Shown here one piece after another: positions 17,830 to 33,880 of a DNA stretch of 34,063 nt. The notes under the pieces were generated by a model, which was not told where the DNA came from, ran no database searches, and saw only the letters and a list, made by a program, of their open reading frames with translations. How positions within the stretch are numbered: position 1 is the first letter of the stretch; every line of letters begins with the position of its first letter. Origin of the DNA: Candidatus Anoxymicrobium japonicum (GTDB lineage: Bacteria; Actinomycetota; Geothermincolia; Fen-727; Anoxymicrobiaceae); contig PHEX01000010.1 in NCBI GenBank assembly GCA_002843005.1, positions 1-34,063 of the forward strand, written 5' to 3'. The translations under genes and the position numbers were made by a program.

Positions 17830-17858
17830 GCAAGTGAGTGGCTCCTGCGGGTGGACGT

Positions 17859-18968
17859 ATGATTTACGCTGAAGGCTCGCGTCCTTCCGGGGAACGCGAA
17901 GTAATTGATTTTGTCTCAAAAATAACGGAGGCCTCGAGGCGCCGTATCGAAGAGAAACTTCCCCACGGATTCGTTCGTCTCAAGGTTGCGGAGGCGGAGC
18001 GAAGACAGGCGCAGCAGGATATCCGTTCCGTGGAAGACATCGTGTGCGAACTCGCGCGAAACTCGAGGGACGCGGGCGCTCGCCACGTTCTGGTGGCTTT
18101 TCAAAAAGAGAAGGGGCGCTTCCGCAGTATCTCTGTGCTGGACGATGGTTGCGGTATCCCCACAGACATGCACCAGATGGTTTTTGAGCCGCGCGTTACA
18201 TCAAAGCGAGAGGATTTTGAGGAGGATAGATACGGGGTGCACGGGCGGGGCATGGCGCTTTTTTCGATACGATCCCGATCGATCAGCGCCCGGATTGTTT
18301 CCTCGAGTCCGAATGGCGGAACGGTAATCAGCGTCTTGGTCGACACGTTGATGGTGCCGGAGCGTTCGGATCAGGCTACGCTTCCGATTATAGAGGAAAA
18401 AGAGGTTGGCCTTGAGATCGGCGCCGGCTCGCACAATGTGGCAAGGGTTCTATCGGAGATGTCGACCGATTCCCGGAATGTGGATTATTACCTCGGCTCG
18501 GTTGCTGAGATACTGGCAACGGCAAGAATGTTATCGACCGATCATGACACGCGCAATTCGCCCTGGGCAAACCTCGCGAGAATCGATGACATCAGGCTAC
18601 TGGCTGAAGTTTCAAAAACCAGGTTGGGTTTGTCGGTATCCGAGAGGAACGCGTACCGCGTTGTGAACGGTGAGATTGTTCCACTTGAAACCATGTTGAA
18701 GCGGGCGAAAGACGCTACAGGGATTAGCAGGAAGGCCTGTAAGGCATCGCCGGGAGCGGACGGCATCAGGAGCGGACGGCTCCGAAGCCCGTTACGAAAG
18801 CTTTCAAAAGATGATCTCTCCGAGATAGGTGAACGGTGCGGGCAGATTGTCGAGGGTGTGTTAGGGCGTTACTACATGAAGCCCGCGGGCACTATCAGGA
18901 TCCGGCGAGGCAAGGGAAAGATAGTAATGTCGTTTTTCATCATCGGAGAAGATGGAGATGGGGAATGA
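17859..18968 (+). CDS. Uncharacterised GHKL-fold ATPase
   Basis: About residues 55-165 form a GHKL (gyrase/Hsp90/histidine kinase/MutL) ATP-binding domain: N box ELARNSRDAGA at 64-74, G1 box DDGCGIP at 95-101, FEPRVTSK near 109-116, and G2 box GVHGRGMALFSI at 126-137. The remaining 200 residues are mostly helical and unfamiliar; the last 25 are basic and beta-like (TIRIRRGKGKIVMSFFIIG). There is no histidine phosphorylation site, transducer domain or membrane helix, so it is not a classical sensor kinase. The ATG at 17859 follows GGGTGGA; an upstream GTG at 17838 is less likely. Its stop overlaps the next start (ATGA), which strongly suggests a functional pair. ATP binding is predictable; the function is not. 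Confidence 0.8.
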   Translation: MIYAEGSRPSGEREVIDFVSKITEASRRRIEEKLPHGFVRLKVAEAERRQAQQDIRSVEDIVCELARNSRDAGARHVLVAFQKEKGRFRSISVLDDGCGIPTDMHQMVFEPRVTSKREDFEEDRYGVHGRGMALFSIRSRSISARIVSSSPNGGTVISVLVDTLMVPERSDQATLPIIEEKEVGLEIGAGSHNVARVLSEMSTDSRNVDYYLGSVAEILATARMLSTDHDTRNSPWANLARIDDIRLLAEVSKTRLGLSVSERNAYRVVNGEIVPLETMLKRAKDATGISRKACKASPGADGIRSGRLRSPLRKLSKDDLSEIGERCGQIVEGVLGRYYMKPAGTIRIRRGKGKIVMSFFIIGEDGDGE

Positions 18969-19888
18969 GACTTGCCCGACACCGATGGTTCATCGCGATT
19001 GCCGTACTGGTCGCTCTCGTTCTGGCGGCGTCTATCGCGGGGTTCTTGTGGTGGCGTGAGAGCGCGCGCTCAAACAGCGAGAAGAGGTACGAGAACATTG
19101 CGTCGAGGGATTGGCGAAGAATATTCGATCGGGCAAATCTTGTTACGGTAGCGTTGCTGAAGGTTGAATCCCTGACCGACCTCACGGGTGTCGCGACCGA
19201 GGCGTCGGATATGACAAAAGAGATCGCGAAGATTGCCTCTGAGCGCAAGAAAAGTGAAATGCCCCGTGGACAGAAAGCAACGGTAGCCAGGGAATCTGTG
19301 GCGCTCGAATCACTCGGTAAATATCTGGAGATGCTGGACGAACTCGCGCTAAAGGTCAATGCCGAAGAACTCTTGAAAACGAGAAGCCTGATCGAAGATC
19401 GCGCGAGAGTCGCGCAGGCCAACGTAGACGATTTTCTGGCGTCCGCCAGATGGCTCAACGGGAACATAACGGGAGATTTCTATTCAGCCGGTTCAATGCT
19501 TCAGGCCGTAATCCAGCCCGTGGACAGGGCGCAGGAAGAAATGAAAAGCGCGGTTTTCGAGGCCGTCAACGCATTCATGGATGCCGACATATCGCGCCAT
19601 GATTTCGATTTGATATGGGCGATGCTGTCGAGCAAGCTTCATATGGTGCTGGGGTACTACAAGATAAACAAGGAGAATCTCAACGTGGGGTGGAAGAAGG
19701 CATGGGGCGATAAGAAGCCGGTAAGTTTTTATGTCAACAAATCGCAGATATCATTCCCCGGCGCCGGAAGCGCCGCCGTAAATGTGATCGTTTACACGGA
19801 AAAGAGCGGCATCAGAAGAGGAAAGGTGCGACTCCTTTACGAGAACGGCTGGAAACTCGACAGCTACCCATTCGCCGGTTTTGGATAG
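18965..19888 (+). CDS. Membrane-anchored protein of unknown function
   Basis: This 307-aa protein has one N-terminal transmembrane helix (about residues 9-30, FIAIAVLVALVLAASIAGFLWW) after a basic start (MRLARHR), so the rest is predicted to be outside the cytoplasm. The middle (about 40-190) is helical and charged and may form a coiled coil. The C-terminal 90 residues (DFDLIWAMLSSKLHMVLGYYKI ... VNVIVYTEKSGIRRGKVRLLYENGWKLDSYPF) resemble small NTF2/SnoaL-like secretory domains in pattern only. GGAGATGGGGA precedes the ATG, which overlaps the stop of the GHKL gene. I do not recognise the family. Confidence 0.75.
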   Translation: MRLARHRWFIAIAVLVALVLAASIAGFLWWRESARSNSEKRYENIASRDWRRIFDRANLVTVALLKVESLTDLTGVATEASDMTKEIAKIASERKKSEMPRGQKATVARESVALESLGKYLEMLDELALKVNAEELLKTRSLIEDRARVAQANVDDFLASARWLNGNITGDFYSAGSMLQAVIQPVDRAQEEMKSAVFEAVNAFMDADISRHDFDLIWAMLSSKLHMVLGYYKINKENLNVGWKKAWGDKKPVSFYVNKSQISFPGAGSAAVNVIVYTEKSGIRRGKVRLLYENGWKLDSYPFAGFG

Positions 19889-19895
19889 GGATCCG

Positions 19896-19952
19896 CTTAA
19901 CTTTGGGGTCAGTCCCACATGGCGCGTCCGTGCGCCATGTGGGACTGACCCC
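19896..19952. repeat. Family B palindromic repeat (perfect 21-bp hairpin)
   Basis: CTTAACTTT leads into a perfect inverted repeat: arms 19905-19925 and 19932-19952, starting GGGGTCAGTCCCACATGG and separated by GTCCGT. The leading CTTAACTTT(T)GGGGTCAG is shared with the end of family A. A degraded second copy is at 31165-31210. It follows the membrane-anchored gene and may act as a terminator-like barrier, though no T-tract follows. Confidence 0.85.
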
Positions 19953-20047: not shown

Positions 20048-20317
20048 ATGCAACTGTCGGACAGAGAGATACAGAATACGCTCGATCTGCTGAAAAAAAA
20101 GGAGAAAATGGGAGAGGGCAAAGAGGCTATCCTGCTTAGCGAGAAAGAGATAAAGGGCATCCAGGAAGTCGTGAAGCAGATAGACTCCGTGCCCGAGGTT
20201 CGCAAGGACAAAGTTCAGAAGATCAAGAAAGCGATAGAGTCTTCCAGTTACGATGTGACAGGGGACGATATCGCCAAGAAGCTCGTTGGCCGCATGATTT
20301 CAGACAAGCTGCACTAG
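20048..20317 (+). CDS. FlgM-like protein (anti-sigma-28 family)
   Basis: The 89-aa product has the FlgM C-terminal pattern VRKDKVQKIKKAIESSSYDVTGDDIAKKLVGRMISDKL, the region that binds the flagellar sigma factor in known members. The N-terminal half is lysine-rich and probably disordered, as in FlgM. The ATG at 20048 was chosen over 20018 because GGTGGAAG lies just upstream of it. No flagellar or sigma-28 gene is nearby, so its partner cannot be inferred. A weak hairpin (AGTGTT/AACACT, 20316-20332) overlaps its stop. Confidence 0.7.
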   Translation: MQLSDREIQNTLDLLKKKEKMGEGKEAILLSEKEIKGIQEVVKQIDSVPEVRKDKVQKIKKAIESSSYDVTGDDIAKKLVGRMISDKLH

Positions 20318-20374: not shown

Positions 20375-20591
20375 GAGATGGATCCCGGTCTGTGGTTGAA
20401 AGTCGAGGCCAGTCGCAGGCGAAACGACCCACGTAAGACAACTAATGGTTGCCGAGCATGGTGCGGCTTAGGGGTAAGTCCTGCCCACGAATAATCGTGG
20501 AGAAGACGGCGTGGTTCCGGCCGTAGGCCTGAGCCGCAAACTCTCAGCAGGCGAGTGTGGGGGCAAAGACCAGGTCAGCGGGATCCATCTC
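20375..20591 (+). ncRNA. Structured non-coding RNA, candidate raiA-motif RNA
   Basis: The region is closed by a perfect 13-bp helix, GAGATGGATCCCG (20375-20387) with CGGGATCCATCTC (20579-20591). Inside, GCGGCTTAGG (20463-20472) pairs with CCTGAGCCGC (20528-20537) over ten positions with one wobble, enclosing two hairpins: CCACGA/TCGTGG (20485-20500) and ACGGC/GCCGT (20506-20524). CAAC/GTTG around TAAT makes a further hairpin near 20440-20452, and GTGGTTG pairs with CGACCCAC near 20393-20416. There is no convincing ORF. Length (217 nt), a long closing stem and position upstream of hpf/raiA fit the raiA RNA motif of Bacillota and Actinomycetota. The family name is inference; the structure is seen directly. 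The rest of the 400-base gap (20318-20374 and 20592-20717) holds the csp promoter and leader. Confidence 0.72.
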
Positions 20592-20657: not shown

Positions 20658-20686
20658 TGGACACCTATTTCTTCCTGTGATAACCT
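20658..20686 (+). promoter_or_regulatory. Predicted extended -10 promoter of the cold-shock gene
   Basis: TGGACA (20658-20663) and TAACCT (20681-20686) are separated by 17 bases, and TGA directly before the -10 box gives a TGn extended -10. Transcription would start near 20693, downstream of the structured RNA and about 25 bases before the csp start. Confidence 0.5.
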
Positions 20687-20717: not shown

Positions 20718-20924
20718 TTGGAATCAGGCACTGTCAAGTGGTTCAATCCGGAGAAAGGATTTGGCTTGATAGAACGAGAAAGCGGAAAGTGTGTTTCTGT
20801 GGATTTCTCGGATATCAACGCCGAGGGATACCGGTTGCTCAATGAAGGTGAAGTCGTGCGGTTCAAAGTGGTTGATGGCGACAGGGGACCAAGGGCGACC
20901 GATGTCACCAGGCAAGACATATAA
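20718..20924 (+). CDS. Cold-shock domain protein (divergent)
   Basis: This 68-aa protein has the CSP fold signature SGTVKWFNPEKGFGLIERE, with RNP1-like KGFGLI, and the late GPRATDV. RNP2, normally VFVHFS, reads VSVDFS, so one aromatic and the histidine that stack on nucleic acid are missing. GGGAGGAAG lies just before the TTG at 20718, which decides the start. The frame is open upstream to 20511, but that part overlaps the structured RNA. Likely an RNA-binding chaperone with altered affinity; its place ahead of hpf links it to ribosome or cold-stress physiology. Confidence 0.85.
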   Translation: MESGTVKWFNPEKGFGLIERESGKCVSVDFSDINAEGYRLLNEGEVVRFKVVDGDRGPRATDVTRQDI

Positions 20925-21002: not shown

Positions 21003-21554
21003 TTGCAGGTAATTGTAAAGGGAAAAAATATCCAGGTCACGGATGCTCTTCGTGAGTATGCTACAGCAAAAGCGTCTAAGATACAGAAGTTGGGAGTGGA
21101 GATTCGCGGGATAGTGGTAACGCTGTTGGTCGAGAAGAACCCCAGTATCCGGCAAAACCAGATCGCTGATATCGATCTCTACTGCAACGGCGTGGCGTTC
21201 CGGGCGGTAGGTCGTGACAGGGACATGTATGTCGCTGTCGATCAGGCTGTCTCCAGGGCGCAGCGGCAGATAGCCAGGCGACACGGCAAGAAGGTAAATC
21301 GCGCGCAGGTCCAACCTGGCGCGCAGGACGTCCAGATGAATGACAGGGAAGATATGACGCCCTCCATCGTCAAAGTGAAGGCGATATCGCACAAGCCGAT
21401 GACGTCCGAGGAGGCGGTTCTCCAGATGGAAACGGTCGGTCACGATTTTTTCGTTTTTACCGATTCTGAGAGTGAAAATACCAACGTCGTTTACCGGCGT
21501 TTCGATGGGAACTACGGCGTGATAGACTACGGCGTTACTGACCAGGGGAGATGA
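21003..21554 (+). CDS. hpf: Long-form ribosome hibernation promoting factor
   Basis: Long HPF dimerises 70S ribosomes into inactive 100S particles. The N-terminal RaiA/S30AE domain (MQVIVKGKNIQVTDALREYATAKASKI ... DIDLYCNGVAFRAVGRDRDMYVAVDQAVSRAQRQI) is followed by a linker and the C-terminal dimerisation domain (IVKVKAISHKPMTSEEAVLQMETVGHDFFVFTDSES). At 183 aa it is the Gram-positive long form. GGAGG at 20993-20997 is five bases before the TTG at 21003; the GTG at 20997 overlaps that site and is rejected. Confidence 0.94.
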   Translation: MQVIVKGKNIQVTDALREYATAKASKIQKLGVEIRGIVVTLLVEKNPSIRQNQIADIDLYCNGVAFRAVGRDRDMYVAVDQAVSRAQRQIARRHGKKVNRAQVQPGAQDVQMNDREDMTPSIVKVKAISHKPMTSEEAVLQMETVGHDFFVFTDSESENTNVVYRRFDGNYGVIDYGVTDQGR

Positions 21555-21560
21555 CCGGCC

Positions 21561-21647
21561 GTGGCCAGCCTGATTGGTTATTTGAAAAAAATCTTGAAAT
21601 CTATCGCTGAGACGTTTCTGGCTGGCGGCGCGGGGATACGATGGTAA
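21561..21647 (+). CDS. Possible 28-aa amphipathic small protein
   Basis: Between hpf and the HD-GYP gene an open frame starts at GTG 21561 and encodes MASLIGYLKKILKSIAETF followed by LAGGAGIRW. Hydrophobic and lysine residues alternate as in a membrane-surface helix. AGGGGAG lies about 11 bases upstream. Its TGG-TAA end overlaps the ATG of the HD-GYP gene, so it could couple translation of that gene. Too short for composition to prove coding; no family recognised. Confidence 0.35.
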   Translation: MASLIGYLKKILKSIAETFLAGGAGIRW

Positions 21648-23317
21648 GGCGATCCAATCTCGAGCTCGATGACTCGCTCTTCGAGGGTGAGAAAAGAAAG
21701 TCGCGCGGCGGACGTCGACGGACGCCTGACGAACCGAAGGCGCCGGGTTCTTTTGTTCCAACCGGTAGAGCCGATAACGCCCTGGCTGTCTCAGTTGTCC
21801 TTGCCGCCCTCCTTCTGATGCTCCTGGGCTTCATATCTGGCAAGGAGAACTGGTTCGCTGTCGTTTTTATCGGATTGATGTTCCTCGCCTCCGAGCTTTT
21901 TGCTCTGCCCATGAAGTCTGGAGGTCGCCTGTCTGTAGCGTTGTTGCCACTTGCAATGGCGATGATGATATCAGGCCCGTTCGGCACGGCTGTCGTGGCG
22001 TTTTTCGGCGTGCCGATCTTCTTCATGGAGCGAGGGGAGCACGGCGCCAGGCGTGTGGTCTTTAACACGTCCCAGCTAGTTTTTGCGGCTGCCGCCGCGG
22101 GGATGGTGTTCAAATATACGGGAGGTGGCGCGGGTCTGGACGCCACCCTCAAAAATAGCGGCGGGCTGATCTTGCCGTGGATACTCGCGACAATCGTATT
22201 TTTCGTGTTCAATACCTTGCAGGTTACGCCGGTGCTGGCGCCTGATGGGGAGCGGATGTTTCACTTCTGGCAAAGGCGGCTGTTGCCCAGGCTGCCGGGG
22301 TACGCGTTCTACTCCGTCATCGGATTCCTTGCCGCGGTGGTATACATAAAACTCCAGCCCCCCGCTGTCGTGCTGCTGTTCGCGCCGATACTTGCGGTAA
22401 GGGTCGTATACACGCGTTACGGCATGATGCGCGATGTCTGCGACAGTACTACCCTCGCGATCGTAGAGACTATCGAGGACGGAAATATCTTTATGGAGGG
22501 GCATAGTCTTAGTGTAGCGGAGATCGCGGTTGCTATCGCGGACGAGATGGATTTTGAGGAGGAAGACGAGCACTGCCTGCGACAGGCCGCTCTTCTACAT
22601 GACATGGGCAAACTCGCGCTTGATCCGTCGATTGTCGACAAGGCGGACATTCTTTCGCCGGATGAGTACGATGAGATGAAAAAACACCCGCTTATAGCCG
22701 CGAACATAGTATCGAAAGAGCAGTCGTTTGCCGTGGTGGAGTCCATTATCAGGCACCACCACGAGATGAGCGACGGCAGTGGTTACCCCGATGGGCTGGC
22801 GGGCGACATGATACCACCTGGCGCCCGCATCCTCGCGGTCGCGGACGCCTTCGACGCCATGCAGAGGCCCGTGCCTTTCAGAGAGTCTCTTAGCGCGCAT
22901 GACGCTGTCTCTGAGATCGCGCGTGGCAAGGGAATGCAGTTTGATCCGGATGCCGTGGACGCGTTTCTGAAGGTCGCGATCAAGCGTGGCTTCTGGAGTG
23001 GCGCGATCAAGGATCCGGCGCCTATGTCCGCGAGAGAGCCGGAGCAACTTCGGCTTACCGTCGAACCCGGGCAACTGATAGGCGAGGAGGCCGCCCCGCT
23101 GGCAAGGGACACGGACGCGGCGTGGCAGAAACCGGTTGGCGCGACTTCGAGTGGTGACGTCTCCTACGACGACGTCAGGGAAGATATCGAGAAAGACATC
23201 CGCGAATGGAAGAGGATCGAAAGTGGTCACAGAAGAGTCAGGGAGCAGAAGAAAAAGACGCGCTCCCGCAAAAAAAAGAAACAGGAAGTCGAGGGAGAGG
23301 ATCCGGAAACCTCGTAG
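21641..23317 (+). CDS. Membrane HD-GYP domain protein
   Basis: About 40 polar residues precede a membrane region of roughly six to seven helices (residues 48-256), then an HD-GYP domain. Its metal and signature residues are present: H288, HD at 320-321, H349, HHH around 372-374 and DGSGYPDG from 378. HD-GYP proteins usually hydrolyse cyclic di-GMP or related dinucleotides; activity is likely but the substrate is inferred. The C-terminal 120 residues are charged, ending in a lysine/arginine-rich tail. It shares architecture with the next gene, overlaps it, and lies upstream of secA. Confidence 0.85.
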   Translation: MVRRSNLELDDSLFEGEKRKSRGGRRRTPDEPKAPGSFVPTGRADNALAVSVVLAALLLMLLGFISGKENWFAVVFIGLMFLASELFALPMKSGGRLSVALLPLAMAMMISGPFGTAVVAFFGVPIFFMERGEHGARRVVFNTSQLVFAAAAAGMVFKYTGGGAGLDATLKNSGGLILPWILATIVFFVFNTLQVTPVLAPDGERMFHFWQRRLLPRLPGYAFYSVIGFLAAVVYIKLQPPAVVLLFAPILAVRVVYTRYGMMRDVCDSTTLAIVETIEDGNIFMEGHSLSVAEIAVAIADEMDFEEEDEHCLRQAALLHDMGKLALDPSIVDKADILSPDEYDEMKKHPLIAANIVSKEQSFAVVESIIRHHHEMSDGSGYPDGLAGDMIPPGARILAVADAFDAMQRPVPFRESLSAHDAVSEIARGKGMQFDPDAVDAFLKVAIKRGFWSGAIKDPAPMSAREPEQLRLTVEPGQLIGEEAAPLARDTDAAWQKPVGATSSGDVSYDDVREDIEKDIREWKRIESGHRRVREQKKKTRSRKKKKQEVEGEDPETS

Positions 23318-24953
23318 CGCGGTCTTCGACGTAGAGGGCACGGCAGAGGGCTTCGATGACATCGACTTTCAGAACGGGGAGTTCTCAGACGAGAACGTAT
23401 GTCTATCCAGCAGCGCGTCTTCTTCTTTCGAGGAGATAGAGGACGTGGCGTTGCTTGCCGGAAGCGCCGCGGAAAGTCGAGAGGACGGGAGCGGGAGGGA
23501 GGACGCGACGCCGGCAGTGGAAGAAGGTTTTGTAGTTTCAGAACAAGCGCCCGCCAGTCGCAAGTCGCGGGCAGGAGAATCGGTGTCCGAATGTGAGGAG
23601 CACGAGGTCAGGGGTCACGTGCGGAAGCCCCCCACCAGGGAGCGCGCCTCCAGGGGACGCCCGCCGATCAGTGGCGGGTTTCCGATCTTGATGCTGCTCA
23701 TCATAACGGTGGCCGTCGTCACCGTGGTAGTGACTATCATCAAGACCCACCCGGGCGACATAGACTTCAGCAACTTCGTATTCTTCATAGTGGTATTCAC
23801 AGTGGCGGCGCACTTTGATCTGAAGCTCAAGGGTGGAGGCAAGATCAACCTTGGCCTGGCGCCTCTGCTGGCGGCTCTCATAGCGTTGCCGGTGAACCTG
23901 CCTGATGTTCCCTACGCGAAGATAACCGGCTCGGGTTGCGCCCAGGTCGTGTGGGTATTTCTGCTCGGCGTCATCGTGACACTTATTACGCGCGCGATGG
24001 GCAAACTTTCCAAGGAGGATATCCTTGGCCGGCTGCTGGACTTATCGGGCGTGGGCCTGGCCGCCCTGGTCTTTTTTGCGCTCATCAAAATACTTCCAAA
24101 GAAGCCGGAGCTCCATGGGCACTACACGCCTGCCGTACTGGTCGCCGCGACGGTATGCGCATGCCTGATTTATTTGATGTATCTCGCCCGGGAATCATAC
24201 GTCCTTTCGTCTGAAGGGGCGTTTCCGGCCGTGGTGTATTTCCAGAGCACGATGCGCAAGTCGTGGCTCCCATTTTGGATTATCGTATTCACCGGAGTGT
24301 TCATGGGACTGGTGTTCGTGGGCATCGGGATGTGGTCGTTGTTGATATGCCTGCCGTTGTTGCTGATATTTATGTATGCGCACAATCAGGTCGCAGCCAC
24401 TGACCAGTATTTGCTCGAAACTATTCGTGTTCTTTCAGCGATTCCCGAGGAGACGGGGATGCTGACAATCGGACACGCCGATCGCGTGGCCCGGCTGTCG
24501 GTGGATGTCGCGCACGAGCTTGGACTCTCGCCGGAGGATATGCAACAGGTTGAGTTTGCTGCGTACCTGCACGACATCGGGGTCATAACCAGGCAGGGAT
24601 CCCACGACCCGTACCAGAGGCAACTCACCGAAGTCGAAGGGGTTATTACCGGGGGCGTGGACATAGTTGGGAAAGTCGATTATCTGGATGTCGCCGCGGA
24701 GATACTGGGCGGGCGGGAAGATCTGCGCGACAGGGTGACCAACGTGGACAAGAGGCGAGTTGTCAGCATTGGGGCCGGTATCCTTCGCGCGGTGGATGAC
24801 TTTGAGTTTCTGGTTCAGGGGAGCGAGTCCAGGGCGCCGCTTTCAGAAAGCGAGATTCTGACCGAGATGAACCTCGAGCGCGGTGTAAAGTATGACAGTA
24901 AGGTGCTGAGGGCGATATCTCGCGTGCTTTCAAGATCGCCAGCGGAACAGTAA
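23223..24953 (+). CDS. Membrane HD-domain protein with degenerate HD-GYP
   Basis: This paralogue-like neighbour has a long disordered, charged and serine-rich N-terminus (about 1-150), then about seven membrane helices (153-387) and an HD domain (H418, HD at 450-451 in [10 protein letters not shown]). The second half of an HD-GYP domain is not conserved: neither the HH pair nor a GYP motif is present, so catalysis may be lost or altered. AGAGG is seven bases before GTG 23223, which I take as the start, overlapping the previous gene by 95 bases; the frame is open to 23136. Its TAA shares an A with the secA ATG (TAATG). Confidence 0.78.
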
Positions 24954-33531: not shown

Positions 33532-33880
33532 GGGGGCGACAAGGTTTCGACAGAACCGAAGGAGGCGATAGTGCGGGCCGAGCTCCAATAACTCGCAAAA
33601 CTGTTGGAAAAAAACTAAACGCCAATTCTGAAATGGCACTGGCTGCTTAAACAGTAGTCACGTCCCCCGGGTGAGGCCTGCGGCCCCGGGTAAGGCGACG
33701 TTAGCAGGACAGCCCTTCGCCGGGGTTCCGACGGCAACGGGGTTAAATTTTCTGGAACTGGCTAAAGGCGAGGCCTCCCGCGGGCCGAGCCTCGAGCGAA
33801 ACTTAAACCGCGGGATACGCTCGTAGACTCTGTCGTTGAAGCGCTTCTGGACGCGGGTTCGACTCCCGCCGCCTCCACCA
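33532..33880 (+). ncRNA. ssrA: Transfer-messenger RNA (tmRNA)
   Basis: tmRNA rescues stalled ribosomes and tags the nascent peptide. The 5' end GGGGGCGACAAGGTTTCGAC and the 3' end CGCCTCCACCA form the acceptor stem (one G-U), with a T-arm GCGGGTTCGACTCCCGC and an encoded CCA. Reading back from GCACTGGCTGCTTAA at 33636-33650, the tag frame runs from a likely resume codon GGA at 33606: (A)GKKLNANSEMALAA. This is close in form to the Bacillus GKTNSFNQNVALAA tag. Pairs of complementary GC-rich blocks after 33660 provide the pseudoknot region. Length is 349 nt. Confidence 0.96.

Follow-up and report, generated by a model that had tools for sequence, protein, structure and literature searches.

A full-length raiA (ModT) RNA gene between flgM and csp-hpf in Candidatus Anoxymicrobium japonicum

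The window, by which we mean the whole 34,063-nt stretch of Candidatus Anoxymicrobium japonicum DNA analysed here, carries on its forward strand a gene for an FlgM-type anti-sigma-28 factor (20048..20317; Pfam FlgM, 5.6e-12) and, after a gap of 400 bases, a gene for a cold-shock domain protein, csp, with a TTG start (20718..20924; Pfam CSD, 5.4e-20). This gap runs from the end of flgM at 20317 to the start of csp at 20718; the original prediction held that it has no credible gene, and we likewise find none there. The gap is occupied by the subject of this report, a structured RNA at 20375..20591 (forward strand), whose closing helix begins 57 nt beyond the flgM stop codon. Downstream of csp lie the hpf/raiA gene, here called hpf, for a long ribosome hibernation promoting factor (21003..21554; Pfam Ribosomal_S30AE and S30AE_C); a gene for a membrane protein of the HD-GYP type, a putative c-di-GMP phosphodiesterase (21641..23317; Pfam HD_5, 4.3e-33; LHDMG ... 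HHHEMSDGSGYP); and a gene for a second membrane HD-domain protein that lacks the GYP motif (23136..24953; Pfam HD_5, 2.3e-10) and whose true start is probably downstream of that of the open reading frame. The genes secA and prfB come after the HD genes.

The usual order in the class is comFC, flgM, raiA, in some genomes csp, and then hpf, HD-GYP and HD, with flgM in the same place in most members. In most relatives comFC is upstream of raiA; in this genome it is gone from the locus and sits on another contig. A gene for a HATPase-domain protein and a 350-aa open reading frame without a Pfam match fill 17838-19888, where relatives carry mtnA and comFC, and the locus has been rearranged. Just upstream of flgM there is also a REP-like palindrome (19905-19952; GGGGTCAGTCCCACATGG ... 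CCATGTGGGACTGACCCC), which is probably a mobile repeat; with up to 2 mismatches allowed, the genome contains 24 copies of its arm and 0 of the reversed control, and comparable GGGGTCAG...CTGACCCC elements are found in the raiA-csp gap of three relatives (G001, G005 and G007).

When the whole window was searched with cmscan against Rfam, RF03072 (raiA) matched 20379-20587 on the forward strand at 168 bits (E = 1.1e-42; curated cut-off, 101.3 bits) over the entire model, positions 1-209 of 209; with its complete closing helix the RNA runs from 20375 to 20591. The window yielded one other match, a tmRNA gene (33532-33880, 164.6 bits), and at 20375-20591 the search returned no other Rfam family, OLE, ROOL and GOLLD included. 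The 217-nt stretch had been described beforehand as highly structured and probably a raiA-motif RNA, with a cmscan search proposed as the check. Both descriptions are borne out, the second by a match far above the cut-off with no rival family at the site and by covariation in 40 relatives, and the first by a predicted folding energy of -91.2 kcal/mol, a value reached by none of 200 dinucleotide shuffles (-75.5 +/- 4.0; z = -3.9). We regard it as practically certain that 20375-20591 is a true and intact raiA/ModT RNA gene. It is the single copy in this 1.77-Mb actinobacterial genome; 40 of the 59 actinobacterial genomes in our set of relatives also carry raiA, one copy per genome, as do 134 of 397 in a phylum-wide sample. 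The raiA (ModT) RNA is an unusually conserved bacterial RNA with a compact three-dimensional shape, present in thousands of bacteria. The family is already known, and the Anoxymicrobium copy adds one member to it and is otherwise ordinary.

The fold was examined in an alignment of 40 raiA RNAs from the phylum, with a structure that combines the Rfam pairs with the helices reported in the cryo-EM study of the RNA (PMC11751092). Of all cells, 92% are paired, and 39 of 57 pairs show changes on both sides. The covariation score of 0.341 exceeds that of shuffles (0.144; 0 of 500 reach 0.341) and of slid controls (at most 0.110), although a structure drawn on the raiA family tends to beat its slid versions anyway and it is the compensatory counts that carry the weight. 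The covariation seen in these 40 aligned sequences bears out the raiA architecture.

The perfect 13-bp closing helix of the original prediction, in which GAGATGGATCCCG (20375-20387) pairs with its exact complement CGGGATCCATCTC (20579-20591), is P1 of raiA, and it covaries: compensatory changes affect 14 of 16 pairs in one count of P1 and 15 of 20 in another, with the outermost pairs often open in relatives. The 5′ strand of inner P1 (20390..20397) pairs with 20568-20578 through pairs that are invariant or covarying. Hairpin P3 (20402..20428; 20402-20405/20425-20428 and 20408-20410/20418-20420), which agrees with P3 of the cryo-EM structure, is 99.4-100% paired with changes on both sides in 3 of 7 pairs, and its 7-nt loop (AGUCGCA, 20411..20417) is the 5′ half of pk-1, the 7-bp pseudoknot of the P3 loop with pk-L seen in that structure (PMC11751092). 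The 3′ half of pk-1 is UGCGGCU (20462..20468); all seven pairs form in this genome, and across the 40 sequences 99.3% of cells are paired, with changes on both sides in 4 of 7 pairs. The second pseudoknot, pk-2, joins pk-L to J4-1c by two pairs, U20459-A20565 and G20460-C20564 (95% paired); two distant relatives have C-G in place of U-A, and in four relatives a single pair is open. The P5 hairpin (20437..20453) is 98% paired with compensatory changes in 4 of 5 main pairs and contains one A-C mismatch here (20438/20452), which together with an unusually complete P1 is peculiar to this copy. Finally, a 5-bp helix, CCUGC/GCAGG (20480..20551; strands 20480-20484/20547-20551), which is P4 in the published junction nomenclature, is 100% paired with compensatory changes in three pairs, and it encloses variable hairpins at 20485-20500 and 20504-20544.

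The inner 10-bp helix that had been proposed along with P1 fared differently. The complementarity of 20462-20471 with 20529-20538 is present, with one G-U pair, but only 52.3% of cells pair across the 40 relatives, which is the level of shuffles, covariation is absent among them, and the 5′ strand is the one that pk-1 uses. We therefore reject it as a conserved structure; it arises when a single sequence is read with pseudoknots left out of account, and of the two helices for which a covariation test had been suggested, the 13-bp helix covaries and the 10-bp helix does not. A CCA/UGG helix (20429-20431/20459-20461), which we had first drawn as 'P4', was dropped because it shows no compensatory change and clashes with the published pk-2. 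The RNAalifold consensus was set aside as well, since it has no means of representing pseudoknots and places the inner strand of P1 opposite the loop of P3.

A published survey of raiA RNA found comFC upstream in 74% of cases and raiA/hpf downstream in 66%, a neighbourhood that is usual and not obligatory; in this genome hpf is downstream of the RNA. In genomes of the phylum that have no raiA, comFC, hpf and secA typically adjoin without a gap, so that the interval from comFC to hpf is the site that the RNA either occupies or is missing from. Two class genomes without raiA (G003 and G019) have no hpf match either, so that the locus is probably missing from their assemblies rather than lost.

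How the RNA is transcribed can be approached through its relatives. Outside the order, each of the 17 class relatives has a TATAAT-like box 9-12 nt before P1 (3.4 expected), which would place the transcription start at the closing helix or immediately ahead of it. A second promoter precedes csp and hpf, in this genome TGGACA (20658-20663), a 17-nt spacer and TAACCT (20681-20686). Of the 12 genomes of the order, 7 have exactly this pattern, as do most of the 17 other class genomes; further relatives have slight variants, and the chance of the pattern in shuffles is at most 0.02 per genome; this order has TGGACA-N17-TAACCT before csp, other class members TTGGCA-N17-TAGGCT before hpf. The claim that csp, lying between the RNA and hpf, has a promoter of its own (20658-20686) is thus supported by conservation in relatives. 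Taken together, the box before P1 and the conserved promoter before csp or hpf indicate two transcription units, one for raiA and one for csp-hpf.

In addition, raiA is divergent from csp-hpf-HD-HD in families f24 and f65, where the raiA matches have been confirmed. On the strength of these promoters and gene orders in relatives, we suggest that the RNA is very probably an independent gene rather than a cis leader, and a free-standing, trans-acting structured RNA of the raiA/ModT family is, with much the same assurance, the best explanation of the locus. Such a gene would yield a separate transcript of about 217 nt, bounded by P1, with the same compact double-pseudoknot fold as in Clostridium. 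A short T-rich stretch (ATTTTCTT) directly 3′ of P1 could help termination, and no terminator-like site was scored after the RNA. In C. difficile, a strain deleted for ModT enters stationary phase later, contains more c-di-GMP and sporulates less; the deletion is complemented in trans, and ModT abundance is housekeeping-like (PMC11706538). By analogy, the Anoxymicrobium RNA may bind some protein or ligand in trans and adjust how the cell moves from growth into stationary phase, and it is on the same analogy that we infer abundance, trans action and effects on growth transition and c-di-GMP in this lineage. Independence from hpf is likely, while the mechanism is borrowed from Clostridium.

In this genome the -10 box at the expected place is unrecognizable, and such boxes are weak in its order. 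Directly before raiA we recognize no sigma-70 promoter in this genome, judged by a consensus that may not be this lineage's, and directly before P1 no convincing promoter of the FliA/WhiG type. The RNA might for this reason depend on the flgM transcript or on an unusual promoter, and with flgM ending so close to P1 it might be the tail of the flgM message, subsequently processed, the adjacent promoter having been lost. The departure of comFC from the locus, after which the promoters may have been arranged anew, would fit such a history. Against it, the missing box is judged on that same uncertain consensus, and the fact that the RNA is intact points to continued selection on its expression. 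We consider processing from the flgM transcript a possible but minority explanation, and one that is compatible with trans action.

A free-standing gene is also to be weighed against a riboswitch-like leader of csp-hpf that would respond to a signal by controlling read-through into, or translation of, the hibernation factor. Rfam types RF03072 as 'Cis-reg; riboswitch', and in most genomes raiA does lie upstream of hpf on the same strand. However, a conserved promoter separates the RNA from csp and hpf, no terminator-like site was found, raiA is divergent or distant from hpf in families f24, f65, f26 and f48, and in Clostridium complementation in trans excludes a purely cis role (PMC11706538); we think a cis-acting leader very improbable. 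A structured RNA unrelated to raiA and built on the 13-bp and 10-bp helices deserves hardly any credence, for although the two complementarities are both present, raiA matches at 168 bits and the 10-bp helix, itself free of covariation, would exclude the covarying pk-1.

The original prediction also saw in this arrangement a possible link between the RNA, cold shock and ribosome hibernation. The case for such a link is weak, since residues of both RNA-binding motifs of csp are lost in this genome, csp is absent from this place in the other families of the class, and one raiA-less genome (L075) has csp adjoining hpf. The gene at 20718-20924 is the only csp match in the genome, and its RNP motifs are degenerate (KGFGLI and VSVDF versus KGFGFI and VFVHF). 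Within the class, csp occupies the place between raiA and hpf in 10 of 11 readable loci of this order and in 0 of 17 other members. Nine relatives of the same order with csp in place keep VFVHF or VFVHY.

Given the reported effect of ModT on c-di-GMP, the setting of flgM and HD-GYP genes is our best lead to function. The membrane protein encoded at 21641-23317 has the full HD...GYP signature and is, by its sequence, a likely c-di-GMP phosphodiesterase, and the setting fits a connection between ModT and c-di-GMP. The HD-GYP gene adjoins hpf in all 28 readable class members, a count that ignores kinship; HD genes are beside hpf also in families f24, f53, f60, f64 and f65, and in none of the raiA-less genomes examined. 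We do not accept this adjacency as independent evidence, because it follows the phylum tree and is shared by descent in the class; it stays a lead. That the RNA acts on the growth transition by a c-di-GMP-linked route in this lineage is a tentative proposal, somewhat doubtful as it stands.

The genome encodes a FliA/WhiG-type sigma factor (275 bits; G000:C4:22739-23416), and flagellin was not found in it or in most of its class, from which it follows that flagella are not needed for the role of raiA. The co-occurrence of FlgM and a strong FliA/WhiG match in a genome with no detectable flagellin is curious, and the pair may serve a non-flagellar regulon. A more specific reading, in which the raiA RNA of the class belongs to a c-di-GMP/anti-sigma module of FlgM, a FliA/WhiG-type sigma factor and a membrane HD-GYP phosphodiesterase beside hpf, is unlikely; if true, the effect of C. 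difficile ModT on c-di-GMP would reflect an ancient role tied neither to endospores nor, in the many members that lack flagellin, to flagella.

The raiA RNA is unusually conserved, and work on its phenotypes has been done mostly with clostridia that form spores. Spo0A was found in none of the 59 genomes searched (the B. subtilis control was positive), 40 of which carry raiA, and sporulation therefore cannot be its general role. Intact raiA RNAs in actinobacteria that have no Spo0A place the core task of the RNA elsewhere, and the recurring neighbours flgM, hpf and HD-GYP point to the regulation of growth state and c-di-GMP.

With raiA/ModT of Clostridium acetobutylicum and Clostridioides difficile, the Anoxymicrobium RNA shares a full-length model match, P1, P3, pk-1 and pk-2, conserved unpaired nucleotides, a single copy and the neighbourhood of comFC and raiA/hpf. 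Unlike them, it resides in an actinobacterium without Spo0A; in its relatives flgM separates comFC from the RNA, and csp and two HD-domain genes lie downstream, and in this genome comFC is on another contig. OLE, ROOL and GOLLD resemble raiA in having large, ornate and highly conserved folds; they form homo-oligomers, whereas raiA is a monomer (PMC12286853).
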